From NCBI GenBank assembly GCA_017541265.1, contig JAFXZK010000011.1, forward strand, positions 1-34,405: DNA of 34,405 nt, written 5' to 3'. Within the stretch, counting starts at the first letter, position 1, and every line of letters starts with the position of its first letter. The notes below the pieces were generated by a model that had not been told where the DNA came from, made no database searches, and was given only the letters and a program-made list of their open reading frames with translations. A program made the translations under genes and the position numbers. Positions 7,156 to 33,643 of this stretch are shown here, piece after piece. This DNA is from Bacteroidaceae bacterium (GTDB lineage: Bacteria > Bacteroidota > Bacteroidia > Bacteroidales > Bacteroidaceae).

Positions 7156-7176
7156 AATATAATTCACTATAATTCT

Positions 7177-7216
7177 CTCGTTATACCGTTATGTCGTTAT
7201 GACGTTATAACGAAAA
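7177..7216. repeat. 8-bp tandem array, NNCGTTAT family, 5 units
   Basis: CTCGTTAT, ACCGTTAT, GTCGTTAT, GACGTTAT and AACGAAAA occupy exactly 40 bp in the leader of the porin gene, between its -7 box and start codon. Unit order GTCGTTAT-GACGTTAT-AACG is shared with the array at 15836-15875. Confidence 0.88.
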
Positions 7217-7245
7217 GTGAAGTTAAACAAATAGTTTTTCGGCTG

Positions 7246-7438: not shown

Positions 7439-7563
7439 TGGGAAGTGCCTGATTCCCAGATGTCTGGCAGAGGGTATAAAAAGTCCCTGTACTTATGGCG
7501 ATAAGTACAGGGACTTATAGCAATAAGTACAGGGACTTATGACGATAAGTACGGGGACTTATG
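7439..7563 (+). repeat. Dispersed element with 22-bp palindromic units, copy 1
   Basis: A flank containing AAGTGCCTGATTCCCA and CTGGCAGA is followed by AAGTCCCTGTACTTAT (7481-7496), a GGCG loop, its perfect 16-bp inverse (7501-7516), and two more inverse copies, separated by 6-nt linkers that share the order GGCG, AGCA, GACG with a second copy at 33525-33643 on the opposite strand. The first pair would fold as a strong hairpin. It lies just after the GH115 gene, whose TAA stop (7559-7561) is part of the last unit. A terminator or RNA-stabilising role is possible. Confidence 0.85.
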
Positions 7564-10500
7564 GCAGGGGCAACTTTGCGATTTTTCTCCCGTTATGGAT
7601 GTAGATGCCTTTTTGCAAAGGTTTATCTGGAAGTTTTCGCCCTTGCAGGTCATAGGTCTCATAAGACTCATAGGCCCCATAGGCCTTATGGTCAATTGCT
7701 GATGGTATCTCCTCTGCATCGATGCGCTGGAGGCGGAAGTGGTCCACCTTGAACCATCCGTGACTGTCGCTGGTGGAGCGTGTGCCGTCGGCCTTGAAGT
7801 TGCTGGTGCGGATGCCAAGCTTCAGGCTTTCGCCGTCCTTCAGCGTCACCATCACCGCCATCGGCTGGAGTGTCATCTTGCCTGCGCCCGAAGCGCCGTA
7901 GCCGGCAAAGGTGTTCGTCTCGCCCGATGTTTGCATGGATGCCTGGTAATCGCTCTCCTTGCCGTAGTACTGCACGTTCTTGTTGGCAAAGAGGCGGCAG
8001 TTGGCCATCTTGTCCTTCTGCACACCGAGCAGACAGGTCACGAGATAGGTGCCTGCGCCGAGCTTCGAGGCGGCGATGGTCTGTGACAGTTCGTAGGTGT
8101 TGGGCATAGGCTTGGCACTTGCCCAATAGACATTGATGCCCCACAGATGCTTGGCATCCTGGTTGACGCCCCACGAGTTGCCGTTCATCGTGCCTGTGGC
8201 TTTCCAACCTTTTGGCACGCCGCGCACCAGACCGCCTTGCGGATTGAGGGAGCCGCTTGTGCCGTACTCGAAATCGGGGTTGGTGAGAAGCTCTGTCAGG
8301 TCTTCCGTTCCGGTGCTGAAGGGGATGCTTGCCAAGGCACTGACGCAGAGGCCGGGGTCCATGAAGGAAATGCGGACGCTGACCGTCTTGTCCTCCGTGC
8401 TCGTATAGTGGACGGCGGCGGGGATGTAGCCTTGCGCCACCGTCTCATCCCAAGCCTCGGTGCGCTCCGTTTGCTTAATAGAGATGACCGATGCTGCCTT
8501 CCCTTCAACGGAGATGCCTATACGCAGGTCGTAGGCCGTGTTGAGGCGGAACGTCGGCAGGCAGCGCACCTGAATGACGTTGAGTCCCTTCTGCACGGGC
8601 AAGGTGTATTCGGCGTATGGCGCGGTGCCAGCAGATGTGTAGGCCTGCATGTCGAGCGGCCAGACGGTTGCTGTGGTGCCTTGAATGCCGAGTCCATTCA
8701 GTCTCTTGACCGTAGAGGAAGCCTGATTGTAGCATCCTCCGGCAATGATGCAGACATCAGGCTGCAGGATGCTGCTCTGCATTTCTGCCACATCGCTTTC
8801 TGTGGCGACGGCAGGCATCAAGTGCTGGCTCCAGTTGTTCGGTTTGTAGTCCATCATGCCCTGCCACTTGCCGCTGGCGATGCCAGAGTTGTACTTTGTG
8901 GTGAGCGTCTGTATCTCATTGAAGGCATTCTGTGCCTTTTGTGCATAGTCGAGTGCTTTCTCGCGCTGTCCTGCCCAAGCATAGACGAAGCTTTGGCGGG
9001 CACGGAGCAGCTTGATGTTCTGGTCGGTGCAGGCGCAGACGGGGTACTCAAGCAGCTCGTAGTAGGCATTGCGCAGCGACGAGGGGATGCGTGAGCGCAG
9101 TGCTATTACCTTATTATATAAGTCCTGATACTCCGCAATGCGTGCATCAACCTGTGCATTCGAGTGGTCGAAGTGGCAGAGTTGCACATGCTCCGGCTTG
9201 GCAGCAATGCCCAAGCGGTAGTAGGCCATCTTTATCTCGTTGATGGCGTCGGCATAGTCTTCGCCGAAGGTGCGGGCAGCCCAGTCGCGTGTGTATTTGT
9301 AAGCATGTTCCGGCGTCCAGCTGTTGATGTCCCAAGCCAGGTCCATGCAGAACTCCAGCTCCTCCTCGGCTGGCTTGATGTCGCCCACGTTGATAATCCA
9401 CTGGTCTCGAATGCCTTGCGCATAGCCTTTGCTTAATTCGTAGCTGCACAGCGAGGGCGAGATGCTGCTGAGCCAAAGGTAGGAGTCGGGCGAACCCCAA
9501 TAGGAGAGGTGATAGTAGATGGCGTTGCCGCCCGAGCGTGCCTGCTCTGCCTGGTTCGGCATCTGGCGGATGTAGCCGTGGTTGTCGTCCACCCACATCA
9601 GGGTGACATCCTCTGGCACTTGCAGTCCGGCGTTGTAGCAGTCGAGCACCTCTTTATAGGGAATGAATATCTGCGGGATGGTTGTCGGGTCGCCGATGCT
9701 GTCGGCAAGGAGCTGACGCTGGTAGGCGATAATCTCCGTCAGGGCGGCCACGCGCTCGGCTGTCGTGCTGTAGCCGTTGATGCCTGTGTCGTGAACGCCT
9801 CTCATGCCGAGCGTGTAGATGGCGTTCTTGCCTCGGCTCTCGCCCACGCGCTCTGCCCAGTAGCGCTTTATCATGTCGCTGTTCGTGCGCCATACCCAGT
9901 CTTCGTTGCCATGCCCGCCGAACTTGTCGCCCGTCTTGCCCCACTCGTATTCGTTGTCGCGAAGCATCTGTTCGCAGTGGCTGCTGCCCATGTAGATGTC
10001 GTACTTCATGATGAGCGGGATGTTTGTCTTCTCGAACCAGAAGGCACGAGAGCCGGCGTGCATGGCAGGCCAAAGCGTGTTGGCGCGCAGACGCAGCAGC
10101 AGCTCCATGATGGCACCGTAGGTCTTGGGGCCGAAGTTATTAAGGTTGGTGTCCATCTTCTTGGCTGCCCAGGGGCGAAGGCCGAAGTCTTCGTCATTGA
10201 GGAAGATGCCACGGAACTTCACCGACGGCGAACCGACAATGCGACGGCCGGGGGTGACATAGAGCTGCGTCTTCGTGGCTGGCGTCACGTCTGCCCAGTA
10301 TATCCAAGGCGAGACACCCATCATGCGGCTCAGCTCGAACATACCGTAAGCTGTGGCACGAGGCTGCGAACCAAAGATGACAAGGGCTTTCGCCACGCCT
10401 TCCATCGGATTGTCGACCGTCTGCAGACCGAATGCTTCCCACTTCCCCTCGACACCGCTCACGTCAATCTTGCCCTCGGCAATCAATTGGTCAACATGGC

Positions 10501-10946: not shown

Positions 10947-12242
10947 TTATGGCACGAGCATCGAGCTATCGCCGTAGCTGAGGAAGCGGAAGTCGTGAGC
11001 GAGGGCGTAGTCATAGACCTTATGCCAGTCATCGCCGATGAAGGCGCTGACCAGCAGGAGCAATGTGCTCTGCGGCTGGTGGAAGTTGGTTATCATGCGA
11101 CGCACGATATGGTACTTGTAGCCAGGGGCAATGATAATCTGCGTCGAGGCGTGCAGCACCTCCTCGCCGCGTTCGTCCATATAGCGGAGTAGGGCAGTGA
11201 GGGCTTCCATTGTGGAGAGAGAGTTGTCGTACTCATACGGCATCCACTGGGGAACGTGAAGAAGCCCCCTCCCCGCTCCCCCTTTGGGGGAGTGCCACAA
11301 TGCCGCTGATTCTCCTCCCGCAGAGGCACTCCCCCAAAGGGGGAGCGGGGAGGGGGCAGCCAGCACTCCCATATAGTACAGACTTTCGAGGGTGCGGACG
11401 CTGGTGGTGCCGACGGCAATCGCCTCGCCATTGTGGGCAAGCAGCCGCTCGATGGTGCGGCGATGGACGGCGATGTGCTCGGTGTGCATGTCGTGTCCGC
11501 CGATGTCCTCGCTCTTGACGGGACGGAAGGTGCCTGCACCGACATGCAGCGTCACCTCCTCGCGCTCGATGCTCCGGGCATCGATGTCGGCAAGGACACG
11601 CTTCGTGAAGTGCAGGCCTGCCGTAGGAGCCGCCACGGAACCCTTTATCTTGGAATAGACGGTCTGGTAGGTTGTCTTGTCGCTCTCCTCTGTCTTGCGG
11701 TTGAGGTAAGGCGGGATGGGCAGCTCACCGACGGCATCGATGATTTCTGCCCAAGTGAGAGCCGCGTCCCATGTGAACCTAATCTCTTGGCTCGTGCCGT
11801 GCGTCCCGATGCGCTCCGCCGATAGTTTGAATTTTGAATTTTGAATTTTGAATTCTCTCGTAAGAAGCCCTTCCTTCCATTTCTTCGAGTTCCCCACAAG
11901 GCAGTACCATGTGCAACTGCCTTTCCTTGCAAAGTTCTCCTGATACTCCGCAGGGTCAGCAGGCTCAAGAAGGAAGATTTCAATCAAGGCCCCCTCCAAA
12001 TCTCCCCGAGGGGAGGCTTTCCTGAAATGCAGCCTCGCCTGAATGACTCGCGTATTGTTGAAAACCATCAGTGCTCCCTCGGGCAGCAGTGAAGGCAGGG
12101 AGCGGAACTGCGTCTCGCTGATGTGTCCGCTTTCATAGACTAGGAGCTTGCTGCTGTCGCGTTCGGGCAGAGGGAACTTCGCAATGCGCTCGTCGGGCAA
12201 AGCGTAGTCGTAGTCGCGTATCTGTATGTGTCGTGTGTCCAT
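10947..12242 (-). CDS. queA: S-adenosylmethionine:tRNA ribosyltransferase-isomerase QueA with in-frame repeat insertions
   Basis: QueA transfers the ribosyl part of AdoMet to 7-aminomethyl-7-deazaguanine in tRNA, making epoxyqueuosine. The family core is intact: YDYALPDERIAKFPLPERDSSKLL at the start, LMVFNNTRVIQARLHF, LPIPPYLNR, KGSVAAPTAGLHFT, TLHVGAGTFRPV, HTEHIAVHR, AVGTTSVRTLESLYY, MITNFHQPQSTLLLLVSAFIG and HDFRFLSYGDSS near the end. I chose the ATG at 12242, giving 431 residues; an upstream in-frame start (12314) would run through repeat DNA. Most QueA proteins have about 340-360 residues. The extra length comes partly from three repeats read in frame: residues about 75-87 (PRGDLEG), 129-139 (FKIQNSKFK) and 296-327 (a 94-bp palindrome). 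All lie in variable loops, so the enzyme could still work. Confidence 0.93.
   Translation of the reverse strand: MDTRHIQIRDYDYALPDERIAKFPLPERDSSKLLVYESGHISETQFRSLPSLLPEGALMVFNNTRVIQARLHFRKASPRGDLEGALIEIFLLEPADPAEYQENFARKGSCTWYCLVGNSKKWKEGLLTREFKIQNSKFKLSAERIGTHGTSQEIRFTWDAALTWAEIIDAVGELPIPPYLNRKTEESDKTTYQTVYSKIKGSVAAPTAGLHFTKRVLADIDARSIEREEVTLHVGAGTFRPVKSEDIGGHDMHTEHIAVHRRTIERLLAHNGEAIAVGTTSVRTLESLYYMGVLAAPSPLPLWGSASAGGESAALWHSPKGGAGRGLLHVPQWMPYEYDNSLSTMEALTALLRYMDERGEEVLHASTQIIIAPGYKYHIVRRMITNFHQPQSTLLLLVSAFIGDDWHKVYDYALAHDFRFLSYGDSSMLVP
11264..11357. repeat. GC-rich palindromic element, family A, inside queA
   Basis: Two 33-bp arms (11264-11296 and 11325-11357) are exact inverse complements. 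Each contains the inner palindrome CTCCCCCTTTGGGGGAG, with a 28-bp spacer. It is read through in the queA frame as a Pro/Gly/Ser-rich stretch. A near-identical element lies in queG at 28568-28670. Confidence 0.95.
11826..11853. repeat. 7-bp tandem array TTTGAAT x4, read in frame in queA
   Basis: Four perfect TTTGAAT units. Such AT-rich 7-bp arrays otherwise occur here between genes; this one is inside queA and encodes REFKIQNSKFK on the coding strand. Total length 28 nt is not a multiple of three, so its gain must have been adjusted by flanking changes. Confidence 0.9.
11984..12020. repeat. Half of GC-rich palindromic element, family C, inside queA
   Basis: A CCCCCTCCAAATCTCCCCGAG-like arm with a small CTCCCCGAGGGGAG palindrome. 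On the coding strand it encodes SPRGDLEG. It matches the right arm of the element at 22246-22321, which encodes PPRGDLEG in the wbqC-like gene. Confidence 0.8.
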
Positions 12243-12251
12243 AAGTGAGTG

Positions 12252-12259
12252 CAAAAGTA
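12252..12259 (-). promoter_or_regulatory. -7 box for queA (TACTTTTG)
   Basis: CAAAAGTA on the plus strand is TACTTTTG on the minus strand, fitting TAnnTTTG. It is only about 10 nt before the queA ATG at 12242, so the mRNA would be nearly leaderless if this is the promoter used. Confidence 0.45.
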
Positions 12260-12265
12260 CAACAA

Positions 12266-12345
12266 AATTAAGAATTAAGAAAGAAGAATTAAGAATTATT
12301 TCGTACCTTTGCACGAAGAAACTCTTAATTTTTAACTCTTAATTA
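12266..12345. repeat. 7-bp arrays facing both ways between queA and ypfJ
   Basis: AATTAAG, AATTAAG, AAAGAAG, AATTAAG and AATTATT fill exactly 35 bp (12266-12300). The ypfJ side holds the inverse type, CTTAATT, TTTAACT and CTTAATT (about 12323-12345). Read on each gene's own coding strand, both divergent genes therefore have CTTAATT-type repeats upstream. Confidence 0.85.
12304..12311 (+). promoter_or_regulatory. -7 box for ypfJ-type gene (TACCTTTG)
   Basis: TACCTTTG followed by CA matches the Bacteroidetes consensus, 47 nt before the ATG at 12358. It lies between the two 7-bp arrays. Confidence 0.65.
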
Positions 12346-13241: not shown

Positions 13242-13952
13242 ATGAAGATAGGTGACCAGGTGCGCTTCCTTTCCGAGGTGGGAGGGGGCAGAGTGAGTGG
13301 CTTCCAAGGGAAGAACATTGTCCTTGTCGAGGATGAGGACGGGTTTGAGATTCCGATGCTGATGACGGATGTAGTGGTCATAGGCAGCGAGGATTACGAC
13401 ATCGGAAAGGTGAATCCGATAGGAAGCAAGGGGCAAGAGGCTAGGAGCAATGCGAGGGATGATGCCGACCCCGAGCCGGAGGAGAAGCCGACTACGTTCA
13501 AGCCCAAGCCATTGGAACGGCGCGAAGGCGAAAGGCTCAACCTCTACCTGTCCTTCCTGCCCGATGAGGTGAAGGAAATCTCCAGCACGGGCTTCGAGTC
13601 GTACCTCGTTAATGACAGCAACTACTACATGCAGGTGTCGCTGATGAGCGCGGAGAATGCCAGTTGGCGGCTGCGCTTCTGCGGCGTCATTGAGCCGAAC
13701 AGCAAGCTCTTCGTCGAGGCTTTCGACCGCTCGCAGGTCAACGACTTGGAACGTCTTTGCGTGCAAGCCATCGCTTGGAAGCAGGACAAGCCCTTCCTGC
13801 TGAAGCCTGCCATAACAACAGAACTTCGCCTTAACTTGACGAAGTTCTATAAATTGCATGTCTTCCAACCCAATGAGTTCTTCAAGGAACCCAATTGGAC
13901 GGAAGACATTATAAGGGATGATAAGCCGGCAAGGGAAATGTTGAAAAGTTGA
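13242..13952 (+). CDS. DUF2027 protein apparently lacking its C-terminal Smr domain
   Basis: The 236 residues begin MKIGDQVRFLSEVGGGRVSGF, the Tudor/SH3-like start of Bacteroidales DUF2027 proteins, then a Pro/Glu-rich linker (about 68-90) and the conserved beta domain (LNLYLSFLP..., GFESYLVNDSNYY, LRLNLTKFYKLHVFQPNEFF). Relatives I recall continue for about 100 further residues into an Smr nuclease-like domain with a DLHI motif and HGKG. Here the protein stops after AREMLKS, and the TGA (13950-13952) overlaps the first unit of an 8-bp AT-rich array. No Smr-like sequence follows, since manC begins on the other strand at once. I infer a C-terminal truncation by repeat-associated deletion or expansion. 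Function unknown; nucleic-acid binding is possible. Confidence 0.82.
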   Translation: MKIGDQVRFLSEVGGGRVSGFQGKNIVLVEDEDGFEIPMLMTDVVVIGSEDYDIGKVNPIGSKGQEARSNARDDADPEPEEKPTTFKPKPLERREGERLNLYLSFLPDEVKEISSTGFESYLVNDSNYYMQVSLMSAENASWRLRFCGVIEPNSKLFVEAFDRSQVNDLERLCVQAIAWKQDKPFLLKPAITTELRLNLTKFYKLHVFQPNEFFKEPNWTEDIIRDDKPAREMLKS

Positions 13953-15815: not shown

Positions 15816-15835
15816 GATTGTTGTTGTTATTAGTT

Positions 15836-15875
15836 GTCGTTATGACGTTATAACGTAATTTCGTTATGACGAGAA
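15836..15875. repeat. 8-bp tandem array, NNCGTTAT family, 5 units
   Basis: GTCGTTAT, GACGTTAT, AACGTAAT, TTCGTTAT and GACGAGAA, exactly 40 bp, lie just upstream of the SGNH hydrolase start, with the same final GACGAGAA unit as the array at 1718-1797. Confidence 0.88.
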
Positions 15876-15884
15876 TTTGTTTGA

Positions 15885-18593: not shown

Positions 18594-18682
18594 CATTGCT
18601 TTAGGTTCGTTCATTGCTTTGTCATGACTAAGCAATTGCTTCATCATGACCAAGCAATTGCTTCATCATGATAAAGCAACGG
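18594..18682. repeat. 22-bp tandem array with AAGCAATTGCTT palindrome
   Basis: Two nearly identical 22-bp units (18630-18651 and 18652-18673) each begin with the perfect 12-bp palindrome AAGCAATTGCTT and continue CATCATGA. A degenerate unit precedes them (18608-18629), with a further ATTGCTTT at 18595 and a partial unit after. The period equals that of the unrelated element at 7439-7563. Confidence 0.85.
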
Positions 18683-20795: not shown

Positions 20796-22244
20796 ACCAA
20801 GAAAAAGAAATACCAAGCCACAACAAAAGACTGGGCGAAAGCCATCATCTGGATTGCCCTCTACATTGCCTTCCTCTACTGGGTGGATGCCTGGTGGGGA
20901 ATCATCGTCATTCCCTTCATCTTCGACGCTTACGTCACGCGCCGCATCCCCTGGACTTGGTGGAAAAATGCCGAGAACCCTGTGGTGCGAACCGTAATGA
21001 GCTGGGTGGATGCCATCGTCTTTGCCCTCGTTGCCGTCTATTTCGTCAACATCTATTTCTTCCAGAACTATACCATCCCGTCGAGTTCGCTGGAGAAGAG
21101 CCTCCTCGTAGGCGACTATCTCCTCGTGAGCAAGATGAGCTACGGCCCCCGCGTGCCGCAGACGCCCTTGCACATGCCGTTGTGTCAGCATACCCTGCCC
21201 TTCGGTGGCAAGAGCTACATCGAGTGGCCGCAGTGGGAATACAAGCGCGTCACGCCCAAGCCCGTCACGCTGAACGACATCGTCGTGTTCAACTATCCTG
21301 CTGGCGACAGCATTGTCAGCAACCCCCGCTACCAGACGGAATACTATGCCATGTGCTATGGAATTGGCGCACAACTCTACCAGCAACAGACAGAAAGCGT
21401 GCCCCAACCGGAGAACATGACACCCCTGGAGCAGCGCAAATACTACAGCGCTGTGTATGAGTTGGGACGCCAATATGTCCGGCTTAACGAGCGTGACTTC
21501 GGCGAAGTGGGTTGGCGACCTGTTGACAGACGCGAGAATTATGTGAAGCGTTGCATAGGTCTGCCTGGTCAGACACTGGCGATTCGCAACCGCGTCGTGT
21601 ATCTCGACGGCGAAGAGAACCCTGCTCCAAAGAACGTACAGTTCAACTATCACGTCGACATGAACACCAGCTATCTCCCGGAGAAGCTTGTCTATGAGCT
21701 TGGACTCAGCATGAAAGACGTGCAGGACATGTATCAGACGGGTTGCATCCCCTTGACGCAAGCCGCCAAAGAGGCTTTGGAACAGCACACCGAATATGTG
21801 ACAAGCGTGACGCCTATCGAGAGCCGCGATGTGGAATCCCTTTATCCGCAGAACTGTTATACGGGTTGGACGTGCGACAACTACGGCCCCATTTGGATTC
21901 CGAAGAAGGGCGAGAGCATCAAGCTCACGTTGGAGAACCTGCCTGTTTACGAGCGTCCCATCCATGTTTACGAGGGCAACGACCTGAAAGTGACACCCGA
22001 GGGCGACATCCTTATCAATGGCGAGAAGGCTACGGAATACACCTTCAAGATGGATTACTACTGGATGCAGGGCGACAACCGCCATTGTTCCGCCGACTCG
22101 CGCTATTGGGGCTTCGTGCCCGAGGACCATATCGTGGGCAAGCCCATCTTTATCTGGCTCAGCACAGACGTAGACCGTCCCTGGTTCAGCGGACACCATA
22201 TCCGTTGGAACCGCCTCTTTAAGCTGGTCGATAATATCAAATGA
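20793..22244 (+). CDS. lepB: Signal peptidase I (large Bacteroidales form)
   Basis: A 483-residue membrane protease that removes Sec signal peptides. After a basic start (MTKKKKYQATTKDWAK) there are membrane helices at about residues 17-45 and 70-90. The catalytic Ser is in IPSSSLEKSLLVGDYLL (Ser99) and the general-base Lys in YVKRCIGLPGQTLAI (Lys252). The C-terminal box is YYWMQGDNRHCSADSRYWGFVP. Met, usual after the catalytic Ser, is Leu100 here. A long insert between the Ser and Lys boxes is normal for this phylum. The start codon lies in a 9-bp array, and the stop overlaps the next gene by 4 nt. The dapB-lepB-wbqC order is conserved in Bacteroides as I recall. Confidence 0.95.
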   Translation: MTKKKKYQATTKDWAKAIIWIALYIAFLYWVDAWWGIIVIPFIFDAYVTRRIPWTWWKNAENPVVRTVMSWVDAIVFALVAVYFVNIYFFQNYTIPSSSLEKSLLVGDYLLVSKMSYGPRVPQTPLHMPLCQHTLPFGGKSYIEWPQWEYKRVTPKPVTLNDIVVFNYPAGDSIVSNPRYQTEYYAMCYGIGAQLYQQQTESVPQPENMTPLEQRKYYSAVYELGRQYVRLNERDFGEVGWRPVDRRENYVKRCIGLPGQTLAIRNRVVYLDGEENPAPKNVQFNYHVDMNTSYLPEKLVYELGLSMKDVQDMYQTGCIPLTQAAKEALEQHTEYVTSVTPIESRDVESLYPQNCYTGWTCDNYGPIWIPKKGESIKLTLENLPVYERPIHVYEGNDLKVTPEGDILINGEKATEYTFKMDYYWMQGDNRHCSADSRYWGFVPEDHIVGKPIFIWLSTDVDRPWFSGHHIRWNRLFKLVDNIK

Positions 22245-22981
22245 AGACCCCCCTCCAACTCCCCCGAGGGGGAGAGACTGCCGCAGAAGTCCCCCCTCGG
22301 GGGGATTTAGAGGGGGTCGCCATTCCTTGCTGTTACCTCGCTCCTGTCTCTCACTATAGCGCCTACTATCGTGCCGACGAGGTGTGGCTTGAGGTGTGCG
22401 ACCACTTCGTGAAGCAGACGCTTCGCAACCGTTGCTACATAGACAGCCCTAATGGAGCGCTCGCCCTCACCATTCCCGTCGTCAAGCCAGAAGGCAAGAC
22501 GTTGATGAAGGACATACGCATCAGCGACCACGGCAACTGGCGACACCAGCATTGGGTGGCGCTCGAGAGCAGCTACAGACAGTCGCCTTTCTTTGAGTAT
22601 TATGCCGACGACTTTGCTCCGTTCTACGAGAAGAAGTGGGAGTTCCTTGCTGATTTCAACGAAGAGCTAATGATGTTGGTTACGTCGTTGCTCGATATTC
22701 AGAAGCCAATAAAGAGGACAACAAGCTACAGCCCCACCAAGTTCTCCGGACCCACCCCCATCCCCTCCCTTGTAGGGAGGGGAGCAGTTACCACTCCAGA
22801 CAGCTTTATCAGTGGCAGAACTATCTGCTCCCCTCCCTACAAGGGAGGGGTAGGGGGAGAGTCTGGTGGGTCTGGTGCTGTTTACTACCAAGTCTTCGCC
22901 TCGCGTCATGGCTTCCTGCCTGACCTCAGCATCGTCGATTTGCTCTTTAACCAAGGACCGGAGGGCGTGCTATGGCTGTAG
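22241..22981 (+). CDS. WbqC-family protein carrying two in-frame palindromic elements
   Basis: The 246 residues include the WbqC core: YLAPVSHYSAYYRADEVWLE near residue 32, CDHFVKQTLRNRCYIDSPNG, ALTIPVVKP, KDIRISDHGNWRHQHW, SSYRQSPFFEYYADDFAPFY and, at the end, YYQVFASRHGFLPDLSIVDLLFNQGPEG. WbqC proteins are linked to glycan or LPS biosynthesis; their reaction is uncertain. Two parts do not belong to the family. Residues about 3-27 come from a GC-rich palindrome (22246-22321) that joins the start codon to the core. Residues about 169-212 come from another (22745-22875) replacing or inserting into the variable loop before YYQVF. The ATG overlaps the lepB stop (ATGA), and the end overlaps rluA by 10 nt. 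Confidence 0.88.
   Translation: MKTPLQLPRGGETAAEVPPRGDLEGVAIPCCYLAPVSHYSAYYRADEVWLEVCDHFVKQTLRNRCYIDSPNGALALTIPVVKPEGKTLMKDIRISDHGNWRHQHWVALESSYRQSPFFEYYADDFAPFYEKKWEFLADFNEELMMLVTSLLDIQKPIKRTTSYSPTKFSGPTPIPSLVGRGAVTTPDSFISGRTICSPPYKGGVGGESGGSGAVYYQVFASRHGFLPDLSIVDLLFNQGPEGVLWL
22246..22321. repeat. GC-rich palindromic element, family C, at the start of the wbqC-like gene
   Basis: A CCCCCCTCCAACTCCCCCGAG-like left arm with inner palindrome CTCCCCCGAGGGGGAG faces a right arm TCCCCCCTCGGGGGGA followed by TTTAGAGGGGG. It is read in frame from codon 3 as LQLPRGGETAAEVPPRGDLEG. The right arm matches the half element in queA (11984-12020). Confidence 0.88.
22745..22875 (+). repeat. GC-rich palindromic element, family B, copy 1, inside the wbqC-like gene
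   Basis: Left arm about 22746-22786 and right arm about 22825-22875 are near-perfect inverse complements, each with an inner CCCTCCCTTGTAGGGAGGGG-like palindrome. The spacer contains TTATCAGTGGCAGAACTAT. In frame it encodes PTPIPSLVGRGA, a variable part, then SPPYKGGVGGESGGSG. The second copy is at 23453-23582. Confidence 0.95.
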
Positions 22982-24669
22982 CTGTTCATCCCCTCCCTGC
23001 CGAGGTGCAAGGCGCGTCTCCGCCTTGCCAATTCACCTATCCTTTCTGCTACGAGCCGCACCCCCTTTGCATCGCTGCCGCCAATGAGGTGCGCCGCTAC
23101 CTTGCCCAGCATCCCGAATGGCACGACGAGCTGCAACGCGGCAAGATGTTCGGGGTGTTGGTGGTGGAGGGGGCTTTCCTCGCTGCCTTTTCCGGCACGC
23201 TCGATGGCAAGACGCAGCACGACTATTTCGTTCCGCCTGTCTTCGACCTCATGGCTCCGGGCTGCTACTTCCAAGAGGAAGAGACTGCCATCAGCGACAT
23301 CAATCGGCAAATAGAAGCCTTGCAGAGCATCTCCGTAGGGATGCGCTCCTGCTCATCCGCTCTGCACCAAGAGATGCAAGCTGAGCTTGCCGCCTACAAG
23401 CAGCTCATGCAGCAGCACAAGGCTGAGCGCGATGCTTTGCGAAAAAGCTTCACCAGACCCACCCCCAGCCCCTCCCTTGTAGGGAGGGGAGCAGATAGTT
23501 CTGCCACTGATAAGGTCACCTGGGATGGTAACTCCTCCCCTCCCTACAAGGGAGGGGTAGGGGGAGGGTCCGGTGGGTCTGGCCTTGCTCGCCAGAGCCA
23601 GCACGAGAAGGCCGAGTATCGTCGCCTGAAGCAAGCATGGGAGCAGCGCATCTTCGAGGCGGAAGCACCATTAAGAGAAAGGCAACAACAAATTGTGCAG
23701 CTACAGAAGGAGCGCCACGAGCGCAGCATCGCCCTCCAGCAATGGCTCTTCCGTCAGTTCGTCTTCCTCAACGCCCTGGGTGAAGAGAAAGCCTTGCCCG
23801 AGCTGTTTGCCCCTGCCGTTCCCCCTTCAGGGGCTGGCGAGTGCTGTGCGCCGAGGCTGCTGCAAGCCGCCTACAAAGAGGGCTTGCAACCGCTCTGCAT
23901 GGCAGAGTTCTGGGTGGGCGACTCGCCAAAGGATGAGGTGCGGCACGACGGACATTTCTACCCTGCCTGCAACAGCAAGTGCCGTCTTATCCTGCGTCAT
24001 ATGCTCCAGGGGCTTAACGTCGAACCCAATCCTTTGCTTGCCAACCAAGAGCAGTTACTCTCGCAGCTACACATTATATATAATAATAAGGAGATGGCCG
24101 TCGTGAGCAAGCCGGCAGGAATGCTCTCCGTGCCGGGCAAGGACGACCAGCCCAGCGTGCAGGAAGCCATGCGGCAGATGTTCCCTTCTGCAACAGGGCC
24201 GCTCATCGTGCATCGCCTCGACATGGATACCAGCGGACTGATGCTTATCACTTTGACCGAAGAGAAGTACCACGAGTTGCAGAACCTCTTCCTGCATCAT
24301 CGCATCCATAAAGTCTATCATGCTTGGCTTGAGCATGAGATGCCTGTCGGAGAGGAGGGTGACATCAGCCTGCCCTTGCGACCGGACTTCGATGACCGTC
24401 CCCGACAGATGGTCGATAACGAGCATGGCAAGCCTGCACAGACACATTACCGCGTGCTTGAGAACAAAGACAGCCACGCCCTCGTTGAGTTGCGACCGAT
24501 AACAGGCCGCACCCATCAGCTCCGCGTCCATTGCGCCCACAGCCTCGGTCTTGGCAATCCCATCGTCGGCGACCGTCTCTACGGCAAGCCCGCCGAGAGG
24601 CTCATGCTACATGCCTACAGCATTACAATAGAAGGCAAGACCTTTACCGATCCCAATTATGAATTGTGA
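22972..24669 (+). CDS. RluA-family pseudouridine synthase with long N-terminal domain and in-frame palindromic element
   Basis: A 565-residue protein. The C-terminal third is an RluA-type catalytic domain: MAVVSKPAGMLSVPGKDD, then GPLIVHRLDMDTSGLML with catalytic Asp417, IHKVYHAWLEHEM, LVELRPITGRTHQLRVHCAH, and GNPIVGDRLYG. It should convert uridine to pseudouridine in rRNA or tRNA. The N-terminal about 330 residues are the extension known from Bacteroidales members (FTYPFCYEPHPLCIAAANEV, KMFGVLVVEGAFLAAFSGTLDG) followed by a coiled-coil region. Residues about 161-204 come from a family-B palindrome inserted in the coiled coil; the helical pattern resumes at QHEKAEYRRLKQAWEQR. The start overlaps the previous gene by 10 nt, and the TGA stop lies in a 7-bp array shared with the PHP gene start. 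Confidence 0.92.
   Translation: MAVAVHPLPAEVQGASPPCQFTYPFCYEPHPLCIAAANEVRRYLAQHPEWHDELQRGKMFGVLVVEGAFLAAFSGTLDGKTQHDYFVPPVFDLMAPGCYFQEEETAISDINRQIEALQSISVGMRSCSSALHQEMQAELAAYKQLMQQHKAERDALRKSFTRPTPSPSLVGRGADSSATDKVTWDGNSSPPYKGGVGGGSGGSGLARQSQHEKAEYRRLKQAWEQRIFEAEAPLRERQQQIVQLQKERHERSIALQQWLFRQFVFLNALGEEKALPELFAPAVPPSGAGECCAPRLLQAAYKEGLQPLCMAEFWVGDSPKDEVRHDGHFYPACNSKCRLILRHMLQGLNVEPNPLLANQEQLLSQLHIIYNNKEMAVVSKPAGMLSVPGKDDQPSVQEAMRQMFPSATGPLIVHRLDMDTSGLMLITLTEEKYHELQNLFLHHRIHKVYHAWLEHEMPVGEEGDISLPLRPDFDDRPRQMVDNEHGKPAQTHYRVLENKDSHALVELRPITGRTHQLRVHCAHSLGLGNPIVGDRLYGKPAERLMLHAYSITIEGKTFTDPNYEL
23453..23582 (-). repeat. GC-rich palindromic element, family B, copy 2, inside rluA-like gene
   Basis: The arms match copy 1 (22745-22875), but the spacer (23495-23532) is the reverse complement of the copy 1 spacer, with ATAGTTCTGCCACTGATAA shared, so the element is inserted the other way round. 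It is still read as PTPSPSLVGRGA...SPPYKGGVGGGSGGSG, the same frame as in copy 1. Confidence 0.95.
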
Positions 24670-28221: not shown

Positions 28222-29199
28222 TTACTTTTCTAACCATCGTTCGATGTTGCGTTTGAGGCCGTCGTACTTGGCACGCTTGACGGCAGAGCCTTTGAAGAGG
28301 GTGCGGTACTGTTCTTCCGTAAGGCTTTGCCAGTCGTCGGGTGTCATCTGCAGAAGTGCTTCGGAGGGTTGGAAGGCAGGTTCAGCCGTGGGCTTTGCTT
28401 CGGCAAACTGCGGCGTAGCCCTCATGCAGCGGTCGCAGCCGTAGAAGGTGCGCTTCAGTTCTATCTCTTTGGGCAAGGGGCCGCGATGCTCGATGGTTTG
28501 ATAGCTGATGCAGCGGCGGGCATCGAGTCCTTCGGGCGTGAGGGCGGGGCAGATAGTCCCCCTAGAAGCCCCCTCCCCGCTCCCCCTTTTGGGGAGTGCC
28601 TCAATCTCGCTGGACAGGGAAGCTTTGGCGGCAATGGAGCACTCCCCCAAAGGGGGAGCGGGGAGGGGGCTTTGGAGAGGGCTGTCGTAGTGGTCGGCTT
28701 CGGCTGTCAGGAAGAGTTCGCCGAGGAATACTGTCGGTCCGTAGCCCGGCACACTGATGAAGCCGCCATTGGAGGTGACGATGCCGATGCCGCTCTTCCA
28801 AGCCCAATAGCGTTCCATGACGGGTGCGGTATCGACGAAGCATCGGCCTTCGAGTTCGCATGTCTGCATGAGTTCCTGCATCCGTTGCTTCATGACCTCG
28901 TGGTAGTCCTTGCCTTGCGCATAGAGACTGATGGCGGGCTGCTGATGCTGGGGCATGAAGTTCATGGCGAGGCTGACGATCGTGCGTACGCCAGGCACAA
29001 GGAGGTCGGGCTGCAGGCGCATCTCGACGTTGCGGCGCATGTAGTCCATCTCTCCGCAAAAGTCAAGGTCGAGCCATCGGCGGTAGCGAATGGCAAAGTC
29101 GTTCGCCACGGCTTCCGCCTTGGCAAAGCCACAGGCGACAAAACCCAGACGCAGGGCCTGGGCTTTGATGTCTTTGCTATTCAATAATACCGAACTCAT
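28222..29199 (-). CDS. queG: Epoxyqueuosine reductase QueG-like, iron-sulfur motifs disrupted by a palindromic element
   Basis: QueG reduces epoxyqueuosine to queuosine in tRNA with cobalamin and two [4Fe-4S] clusters. Family segments present are YRRWLDLDFCGEMDYM, VRTIVSLAMNF, FVDTAPVMERYWAWKSGIG (Asp123, the catalytic acid as I recall), GYGPTVFLGELFLTAEADHYDSP, LDARRCISYQTIEHRGPLP, RTFYGCDRCMRAT and FKGSAVKRAKYDGLKRNIERWL. After DHYDSP the family has a CGxCxxCxxACPTGA cluster motif. Here residues about 175-213 are instead the translation of a GC-rich palindrome, leaving only CPAL (Cys217). In the second motif, normally CDRCxxACPHN, the third Cys is replaced (CDRCMRATPQ, Thr262). The frame is nevertheless open over 325 residues. 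Probably inactive or altered; it could be treated as a pseudogene candidate. It overlaps the deacetylase gene by 23 nt. Confidence 0.88.
   Translation of the reverse strand: MSSVLLNSKDIKAQALRLGFVACGFAKAEAVANDFAIRYRRWLDLDFCGEMDYMRRNVEMRLQPDLLVPGVRTIVSLAMNFMPQHQQPAISLYAQGKDYHEVMKQRMQELMQTCELEGRCFVDTAPVMERYWAWKSGIGIVTSNGGFISVPGYGPTVFLGELFLTAEADHYDSPLQSPLPAPPLGECSIAAKASLSSEIEALPKRGSGEGASRGTICPALTPEGLDARRCISYQTIEHRGPLPKEIELKRTFYGCDRCMRATPQFAEAKPTAEPAFQPSEALLQMTPDDWQSLTEEQYRTLFKGSAVKRAKYDGLKRNIERWLEK
28568..28670. repeat. GC-rich palindromic element, family A, inside queG
   Basis: Left arm 28568-28600 differs from the queA element's left arm at one base; right arm 28639-28670 is nearly its inverse complement; spacer 38 bp. 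It is read in queG as SPLPAPPLGE...ALPKRGSGEG, a different frame from that used in queA, and lies exactly where the first iron-sulfur cysteines belong. Confidence 0.95.
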
Positions 29200-33502: not shown

Positions 33503-33524
33503 GTTTAGATGTGGTGCGGAAAAA

Positions 33525-33643
33525 AAGTCCCTGTACTTGTCGTCATAAGTCCCTGTACTTATTGCCATAAGTCCACGTTCTTATCGCCATAAGTACAGGG
33601 ACTTATTTTGACATCTGCCAGGCGTTTGGGAATCAGGCACTTA
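33525..33643 (-). repeat. Dispersed element with 22-bp palindromic units, copy 2
   Basis: Read on the minus strand, this has the same order as copy 1 (7439-7563): a flank with AAGTGCCTGATTCCCA and CTGGCAGA, then AAGTCCCTGTACTTAT, GGCG, a degenerate inverse unit (ATAAGAACGTGGACTTAT), GGCA, a perfect inverse unit, GACG, and a last unit. It lies between the tRNA-Val terminator and the merR-type gene. Between 33503 and 33675 I see nothing else of note. Confidence 0.85.

Follow-up and report, generated by a model that had tools for sequence, protein, structure and literature searches.

A 34,405-nt stretch of Bacteroidaceae bacterium DNA (contig JAFXZK010000011.1 of assembly GCA_017541265.1, positions 1 to 34,405; hereafter the window) carries, in two adjacent genes, two copies of a palindromic element that we call family A. 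We consider it likely that family A represents lineage-specific, non-autonomous mobile palindromes with the architecture of a REPIN, a dimer of repetitive extragenic palindromic (REP) sequences, which survive in frame inside genes as translated, probably disordered loops. The two copies, their units and their host genes are the following.

22241..22981, forward strand: WbqC-like gene with copy 1 (PF08889, E = 1.2e-34)
22745..22875, forward strand: family A palindromic dimer, copy 1, in frame within wbqC
22749..22782, forward strand: copy 1 unit 1, tag GACCCACCCCC and hairpin CCCCTCCC-TTGTA-GGGAGGGG
22830..22863, reverse strand: copy 1 unit 2, inverted
22972..24669, forward strand: RluA-type pseudouridine synthase gene with copy 2 (PF00849, E = 1.7e-31)
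23453..23582, reverse strand: family A palindromic dimer, copy 2, flipped with respect to copy 1 but with an equal peptide frame, within the RluA-like gene
23456..23489, forward strand: copy 2 unit 1
23537..23570, reverse strand: copy 2 unit 2, inverted

An initial annotation, made from the sequence alone, had placed twin copies at these positions in a wbqC-like and an rluA-like gene, one flipped relative to the other and both read as the same peptide, from a palindrome open in both directions. The positions are borne out, both hosts have Pfam support, and the rest of the description also holds. As reverse complements the two copies match at 88% over 123 nt (155 bits in BLAST) and in the same orientation more weakly (80%, 111 bits), so one of them is flipped. 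Within each copy the two arms form an inverted repeat (80% and 87% complementarity), and between the copies the arms recur as direct repeats, one of 49 nt (92%) and one of 54 nt (93%), 707 nt apart. Because the outer arms are near reverse complements, the dimer looks almost alike from either side and flipped copies give the same peptide, which in both gene frames reads ...PTPxPSLVGRGA...SPPYKGGVGGxSGGSG...; on the minus strand, open frames also cross both copies. Folding is strong for copy 1 as DNA (z = -8.5) and for copy 2 as RNA (z = -6.8), with 0 of 200 shuffles as good in either case.

Family A occupies about 30 places in the genome of the window (G000; BLAST and inspection, single-unit copies included), an assembly fragmented into 143 contigs. 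The 19-nt hairpin core has 102 matches there at up to 2 mismatches, a count that takes in a related family of hairpins whose loop is TTTAA/TTAAA, against 0 for the reversed pattern. With up to 3 mismatches the unit pattern, with 0 to 44 matches per genome, is present in 74 of the 139 genomes of the genus, while a reversed-pattern control gives 0 matches in all 139; the search of genomes that the initial annotation proposed does find many copies. An order-wide sample of 344 genomes (195 genera) contains only the matches of the own genome and one weak 3-mismatch site elsewhere, and four same-family genomes from other genera have no family A unit. The family is specific to one lineage, a genus of gut Bacteroidota in which it has become numerous. 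Among named records, RluA orthologues come from metagenome-assembled genomes of uncultured Bacteroidaceae, Prevotellaceae, Muribaculaceae or Bacteroidales, and many of these bear the name of a ruminant host.

In the unit of 34 nt a pyrimidine tag, GACCC[AT]C[CT]CCCNN, precedes an 8-bp hairpin, CC[CT]CTCCC-TTG[CT]A-GGGAG[AG]GG, and the dimer pairs two units in inverted orientation, with the tags outermost and a spacer of 25-55 nt (45 dimers, three genomes). Over 111 units the stem positions are paired in 97-100%, and columns 16 and 32, at which the search pattern admitted every base combination without penalty, covary, with C-G in 51 units, T-A in 59 and T-G in 1. The tag follows the stem type, T-type stems being accompanied by TCT tags in 57 units and C-type stems by ACC, TCC or CCC tags in 46, which leaves 8 others. 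Two orthologous insertions in beta-galactosidase genes, E18 of G000 and L115 of G059, have a clearly homologous spacer, and tag and stem have switched type in concert in both arms. Most dimers measure about 96-131 nt, with unit-to-unit peptides of 32-42 aa in 39 dimers, and two of the three frames are open in the first arm and all three in the second. Target duplications, for which the initial annotation proposed to look, left no signal in the 45 dimers, the longest flanking direct repeat being 3.09 as compared with 3.11 in shuffled flanks, and Rfam returned 25 matches at E up to 1 and 0 at the gathering score. A G-quadruplex was considered as the conserved feature and rejected on inspection, no G4 computation having been made: the C-type arm looks like such a motif by eye, but the T-type, equally common (59 vs 51 of the 111 units), breaks the G-runs and keeps the hairpin.

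The elements reside mainly inside genes. In four genomes, 69 of 88 examined copies stand in frame within Pfam-supported genes (22/28 in G000, 16/20 in G045, 13/16 in G059 and 18/24 in G146); the support is direct or, for 12 of the 69, comes through a scanned orthologue (copies not themselves scanned: L100, L105, L114, L115, L116, L308, L311, L315, L316 (2522), L317, L319 and L320). The places examined were 28 of about 30 in G000, leaving out C34:28500 and C109:1275 with their variant hairpin loops, 24 of 25 in G146, leaving out one at a contig end, and in G045 and G059 those drawn from 28/36 and 28/32 unit matches, respectively. We did not count as genic the elements at gene starts in L107 and L327, whose open reading frames (ORFs) match Pfam, nor E22, in a 738-aa frame without a Pfam match, nor L121 and L314, where G059 and G146 have in common a conserved frame without a Pfam match. 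Among the 12 other mapped copies of G000, G045 and G059, E22 apart, eight touch gene starts or ends, two are cleanly intergenic, one is at a contig end and one lies inside a frame without a Pfam match.

The hosts in G000 are topoisomerase III, the glycoside hydrolases GH92, GH123 and GH35, ArgS, AlaS, a 2-hydroxyacid dehydrogenase, TrmO, TsaD, FeoAB, an S9 peptidase, a fused Fe-S/pyridine-nucleotide oxidoreductase, a GT2-DUF4922-SpoIID protein, a Na/Ala symporter, a sulfatase, PrmA, an OTCase-fold transferase, UvrD, PLD, a helix-hairpin-helix protein, WbqC and RluA; those of G045, G059 and G146 include EPSP synthase, LpxB, MiaB, MetH, MnmA and UxaC. When random insertion into the genes of the window was simulated, 13.5% of the events were genic and open, 5.3% intergenic and 81% disruptive, and the observed in-frame share (51/64 in G000, G045 and G059) is far above the simulated 13.5%. 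Random landing with purging of the disruptive events and full tolerance of the others is expected to give 72% in frame, which 51/64 fits (p = 0.21), so that gene targeting is not required; what is needed is a high tolerance of in-frame insertions, or some cost of intergenic copies.

Some hosts stand out in other respects. The topoisomerase III gene (L021 1522-3579, plus strand) has three separate in-frame inserts, whose peptides look like different palindrome families, and the UvrD/PcrA region ahead of the Tudor domain bears elements in three species (L041 812-3268, L120 518-2821 and L315 2297-4696), which stand in tandem in G146. The plus-strand frame L037 1577-3790 encodes a 738-aa protein with a family A unit and no Pfam family at E up to 0.001.

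The reading of the elements by their hosts was followed in 68 ORFs. In the tag-first arm, the TAG-bearing frame is used in 0 of 56 cases. In the tag-last arm the frame reading PSLQGRGWGWV, open and Trp-rich, is used in 2 of 66, both FecR-like genes, and the other two frames in 36 and 28 (p about 2e-9 for 2/66 against one third); in these frame-use p-values sites common to several genomes were counted as independent, which makes them too small by some factor. All three mod-3 classes of unit-to-unit distance occur, and the left frame varies with the distance such that the right arm escapes the Trp-rich frame: at a distance of 0 mod 3, left frame 1 is used in 10/12, and at 1 mod 3, left frame 2 in 5/5. 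Stops alone are insufficient for such a bias, which selection on amino acids would account for. Since frame use avoids the stop-bearing frame and the open Trp-rich frame alike, we infer that the inserts are translated, the shunning of a frame that is open being an argument for translation drawn from sequence only.

Relative to the host proteins, the insert peptides have more G, P, S and R and less I, M, F and W. The RluA-like protein, insert included, was modelled with AlphaFold2 (alignment with 59 orthologues). The mean predicted local distance difference test score (pLDDT) is 90.3, and all 32 residues with pLDDT below 50 fall within 163-198, in the insert. The latter connects helices 99-160 and 200-262 at a helical-hairpin (coiled-coil) tip, and this confident model predicts the insert alone to be disordered. 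The WbqC model, with a mean pLDDT of 56.8, is too poor to rely on, and the insert is its worst part. Each element probably adds about 35 floppy residues to its host protein without breaking the gene.

Most orthologues examined lack the insert. The comparison of WbqC and RluA orthologues suggested in the initial annotation bears this out, 0 of 18 alignable RluA orthologues having it and 6 more lacking the entire helical hairpin, and in TsaD, ArgS and MiaB most orthologues have short native loops. Among the placeable orthologues whose loops were measured (WbqC 41/41, TsaD 30/30, ArgS 25/30, MiaB 27/29, RluA 39/74), 23 loops are at least 12 residues above the median and 20 of these contain an inverted repeat that beats all 60 mononucleotide shuffles; five of the 20 are the family A copies used as starting point (15/18 among the others), and the loops were picked since family A occupies them in one genome, so 20/23 is not a genome-wide rate. 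The palindromes in them are of several kinds. The TsaD loop of G018 holds an A-like element with a different hairpin loop, and the loops of WbqC L132 and TsaD L248 hold GACCC-tagged dimers with TTAAA or longer hairpins. Palindromic arrays of the GCAAGGAGC / GCTCCTTGC type, another in-frame palindrome family, fill sister-species loops of WbqC (L125), ArgS (L218) and TsaD (L249) and are also found in L048, and the WbqC loop of a sister species (L129) has a GGGGGAG-type palindrome like those in queA and queG of the window. Several insertions are retained at one site in two or three species.

We propose that the family A dimer would have multiplied as a non-autonomous mobile palindrome in this one genus. 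Being near-identical in either orientation and mostly open in its arms, it would let a fraction of its genic insertions keep the reading frame; these would survive, gene-breaking ones would be purged, and translation of the survivors would give G/P/S/R-rich loops, about 32-42 residues long and probably disordered, that are accommodated in tolerant loops and linkers. Spread would proceed by single-strand transposition without target duplication, presumably through a protein of the REP-associated tyrosine transposase (RAYT) class with HUH/Y1 motifs. The mobile, protein-tolerated element envisaged in the initial annotation is supported by the in-frame copies in unrelated genes, the empty orthologues and the like pattern in four genomes, with a RAYT-like protein as a statistically associated candidate for the mover.

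It is unlikely, in our view, that the palindromes were instead born in place, at loops, by template switching or hairpin-primed copying, their similar GC-rich sequences being the mark of a common mutational process. Such an origin would suit the several palindrome kinds in the same loops of sister species (20 of 23 expanded loops, with the five starting copies) and the lack of target duplication, and two further observations weigh against mobility: at some sites in ArgS, TsaD and MiaB native loop residues are missing at the palindrome and seem replaced, unlike in plain insertion, and the genomes include no strain pair with an exact empty site. However, the same 34-nt unit, tag included, turns up across four genomes in many genes that are unrelated to one another and, in total, in 74 genomes, the window copies share a spacer in opposite orientation, requiring a common donor, and a sister species has the palindrome of queA and queG again, in its WbqC loop.

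The inserts could also be host-useful modules, a G/P/S/R-rich linker or hairpin kept for its function (flexible linker, regulation or tag), which would amount to domestication and not tolerance. Insertions kept at one site across two or three species, and palindromy conserved by concerted change in one case (E18/L115), agree with this, and were most in-frame insertions harmful, fewer in-frame copies than those seen would be expected. We nevertheless find it improbable, because the host genes are unrelated in function, the insert is missing from most orthologues, one loop holds different palindromes in sister species, and the in-frame share of 51/64 is indistinguishable from random insertion followed by purging. 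The possibility that the insert is never translated, through ribosome bypass or removal of the RNA segment, appears very remote: some mitochondria do have hairpin elements that are skipped by ribosomes, and the hairpins here are very strong (RNA z of -6.8), but every counted copy keeps the gene frame, and bypass requires neither this nor the 0/56 and 2/66 use of the stop-bearing and Trp-rich frames. Finally, an ancestral domain or an assembly artefact, the two circumstances that the initial annotation named as fatal to its reading, is rejected in spite of the fragmented genome, by the unrelated protein families that carry the insert, the RluA orthologues without it, and the agreement of four separate genomes, in which the shared sites differ in sequence.

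Candidates for the protein that moves the mobile palindromes were sought among HUH proteins. The own genome has four Y1 (HUH) genes, one of which (L045) passes the NCBIfam cut-off for REP-associated tyrosine transposase and is a canonical RAYT; a REP-type transposase, for which the initial annotation proposed to look, is present, but no cognate link to family A was found. A RAYT-like HUH protein of large size, with frames of about 330-515 aa, occurs in 87 of the 139 genus genomes (E up to 1e-10); with NCBIfam REP_Tyr_transpos it scores 33 bits, below the cut-off of 80, and a search of solved structures gave weak matches only (best E = 0.22). Element and RAYT-like protein occur together in 59 genomes, the element only in 15, the protein only in 28 and neither in 37 (p = 1e-5), and the protein is present in 19/19 genomes with at least 10 unit matches vs 68/120 of the others (p = 7e-5), in counts that take no account of phylogeny or genome size. 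That a RAYT-class protein is the transposase of family A is a hypothesis to which we give somewhat less than an even chance.

Besides that limit of the counts, several facts tell against the hypothesis. There are the 15 genomes with the element only and the 28 with the RAYT-like protein only; the four own Y1 genes have no family A hairpin in the surrounding 1.5 kb or so (up to 3 mismatches), and 17 RAYT-like loci have no unit (up to 6 mismatches). G126, with 25 unit matches, has no PF01797 match, and its RAYT-like relative is distant (31% identity). The canonical RAYT L045 is also in the own genome, and the association figures cover the RAYT-like protein only. Moreover, a GTAG-type hairpin family may be the true partner of the latter: the RAYT-like gene L046 1099-2487 (plus strand) has hairpins of this GTAGCGGCGAGAACGCCGC type in its own frame, between the HUH and Y motifs, three in tandem in G000 and at the same place in most homologues (L197-L213). 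The TsaD copy comes closest, with an IS200-type TnpA gene at a distance of about 1.6 kb. IS200-type TnpA was itself rejected as the mover: it is full-length in 26 genomes, 13 of the 74 with the element and 13 of the 65 without it (p = 0.83).

Palindromic elements that stand in frame are known chiefly from the obligate intracellular Rickettsiales, besides scattered intragenic REPs in other bacteria, and searches of the open-licence PubMed Central (PMC) literature showed no report of such elements in this lineage. The logic of Rickettsia palindromic elements (RPEs), which the initial annotation had invoked, holds as an analogy in function: RPEs and their Wolbachia counterparts are palindromic repeats of about 100-150 bp that stand in frame in unrelated genes and give recurring peptides. 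Family A differs in coming from another phylum, from gut bacteria, and in being a GC-rich tagged hairpin dimer, and it is likened to RPEs by description; 69 of its 88 examined copies are in frame, whereas nearly half of the first R. conorii set was genic (PMC10969869). In Rickettsia, orthologous sites may hold different RPE families, with family exchange at one site in Rickettsia japonica, and tRNA ribosyltransferase-isomerase (QueA) is among the R. japonica palindromic-insert proteins that have been modelled (PMC3767692).

With REPINs, or REP dimers, family A shares the inverted pair of tagged hairpins, the variable spacer and the many copies. It differs in its flanking consensus, C[AG]GACCC... 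and not a GTAG or CGTC tag, in being mainly genic and in frame (69/88) where REPs are mainly extragenic, and in the lack of a RAYT gene next to a copy (about 1.5 kb around the four own Y1 genes, and 17 RAYT-like loci). Intragenic REPs have been reported, most of them in Opitutus terrae and R. conorii, and Bacteroidetes are named among the phyla with CGTC repeats (PMC3733652). The RAYT-like protein resembles RAYT / TnpA-REP subclass 2.4 as an HUH protein with a WQ motif and in the GTAG-type hairpin within its gene, as reported for that subclass, and differs in being longer (frames of about 330-515 aa); subclass 2.6 genes, present in Bacteroidetes, are flanked by atypical structures repeated genome-wide (PMC6006769). 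Miniature inverted-repeat transposable elements are likewise short and non-autonomous with inverted terminal arms (PMC10969869), but family A has no target-site duplication (45 dimers). In its workings family A resembles a Rickettsia palindromic element and in its structure a REPIN, and it departs from REPs in tag, extragenic position and RAYT neighbourhood.

Through elements of this kind, mobile DNA would be seen to supply proteins with new loops. The genus, with its 139 searchable genomes, displays the stages: empty sites, filled sites, insertions shared between species and loops refilled by other palindromes. This makes it testable how proteins gain disordered loops and whether selfish DNA adapts to life within coding sequence.

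In-frame genic palindromes are not limited to family A, other families being present in the same genomes. The other palindromes of the window named here by type are the following.

11260..11357, no strand assigned: GGGGGAG-type palindrome within the queA gene 10947-12314 (minus strand; PF02547)
22240..22324, no strand assigned: CCCCCC..GGGGGG-type palindrome at the 5' end of wbqC
28564..28672, no strand assigned: GGGGGAG-type palindrome, second copy, within the queG-like gene 28222-29199 (minus strand; PF08331)
1707-1802, 7158-7229 and 15817-15880, no strand assigned: CGTTATAACG-type short palindromic units, an intergenic repeat family with stops in nearly all frames
7456-7584 and 33522-33628, no strand assigned: AAGTCCCTGTACTTAT-type inverted repeats, mainly intergenic, two copies 88% reverse-complementary over 121 nt

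A sorting pattern, resting on the small sample of 13 window palindromes, separates them by open frames. Eight have 0-1 open frame, namely the CGTTATAACG-type units at 1707, 7158 and 15817, the AAGTCCCTGTACTTAT-type repeats at 7456 and 33522, and the palindromes at 18609, 13936 and 34018. They overlap predicted genes by 0-25%, except for the one at 13936 (73%), which spans a gene end. The five with 2-5 open frames (the two family A copies, the GGGGGAG-type palindromes in queA and queG, and that at 22240) are all inside genes. We tentatively suggest, with doubt prevailing, that this REPIN-like DNA lives mainly inside reading frames, with stop-free families genic and stop-rich ones intergenic, and that successive families fill the same loops in different species, as a leading route of loop gain or replacement in the proteins of this lineage. 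Two genes of the queuosine pathway, queA and queG, bear the same GGGGGAG-type palindrome in frame in this one window.

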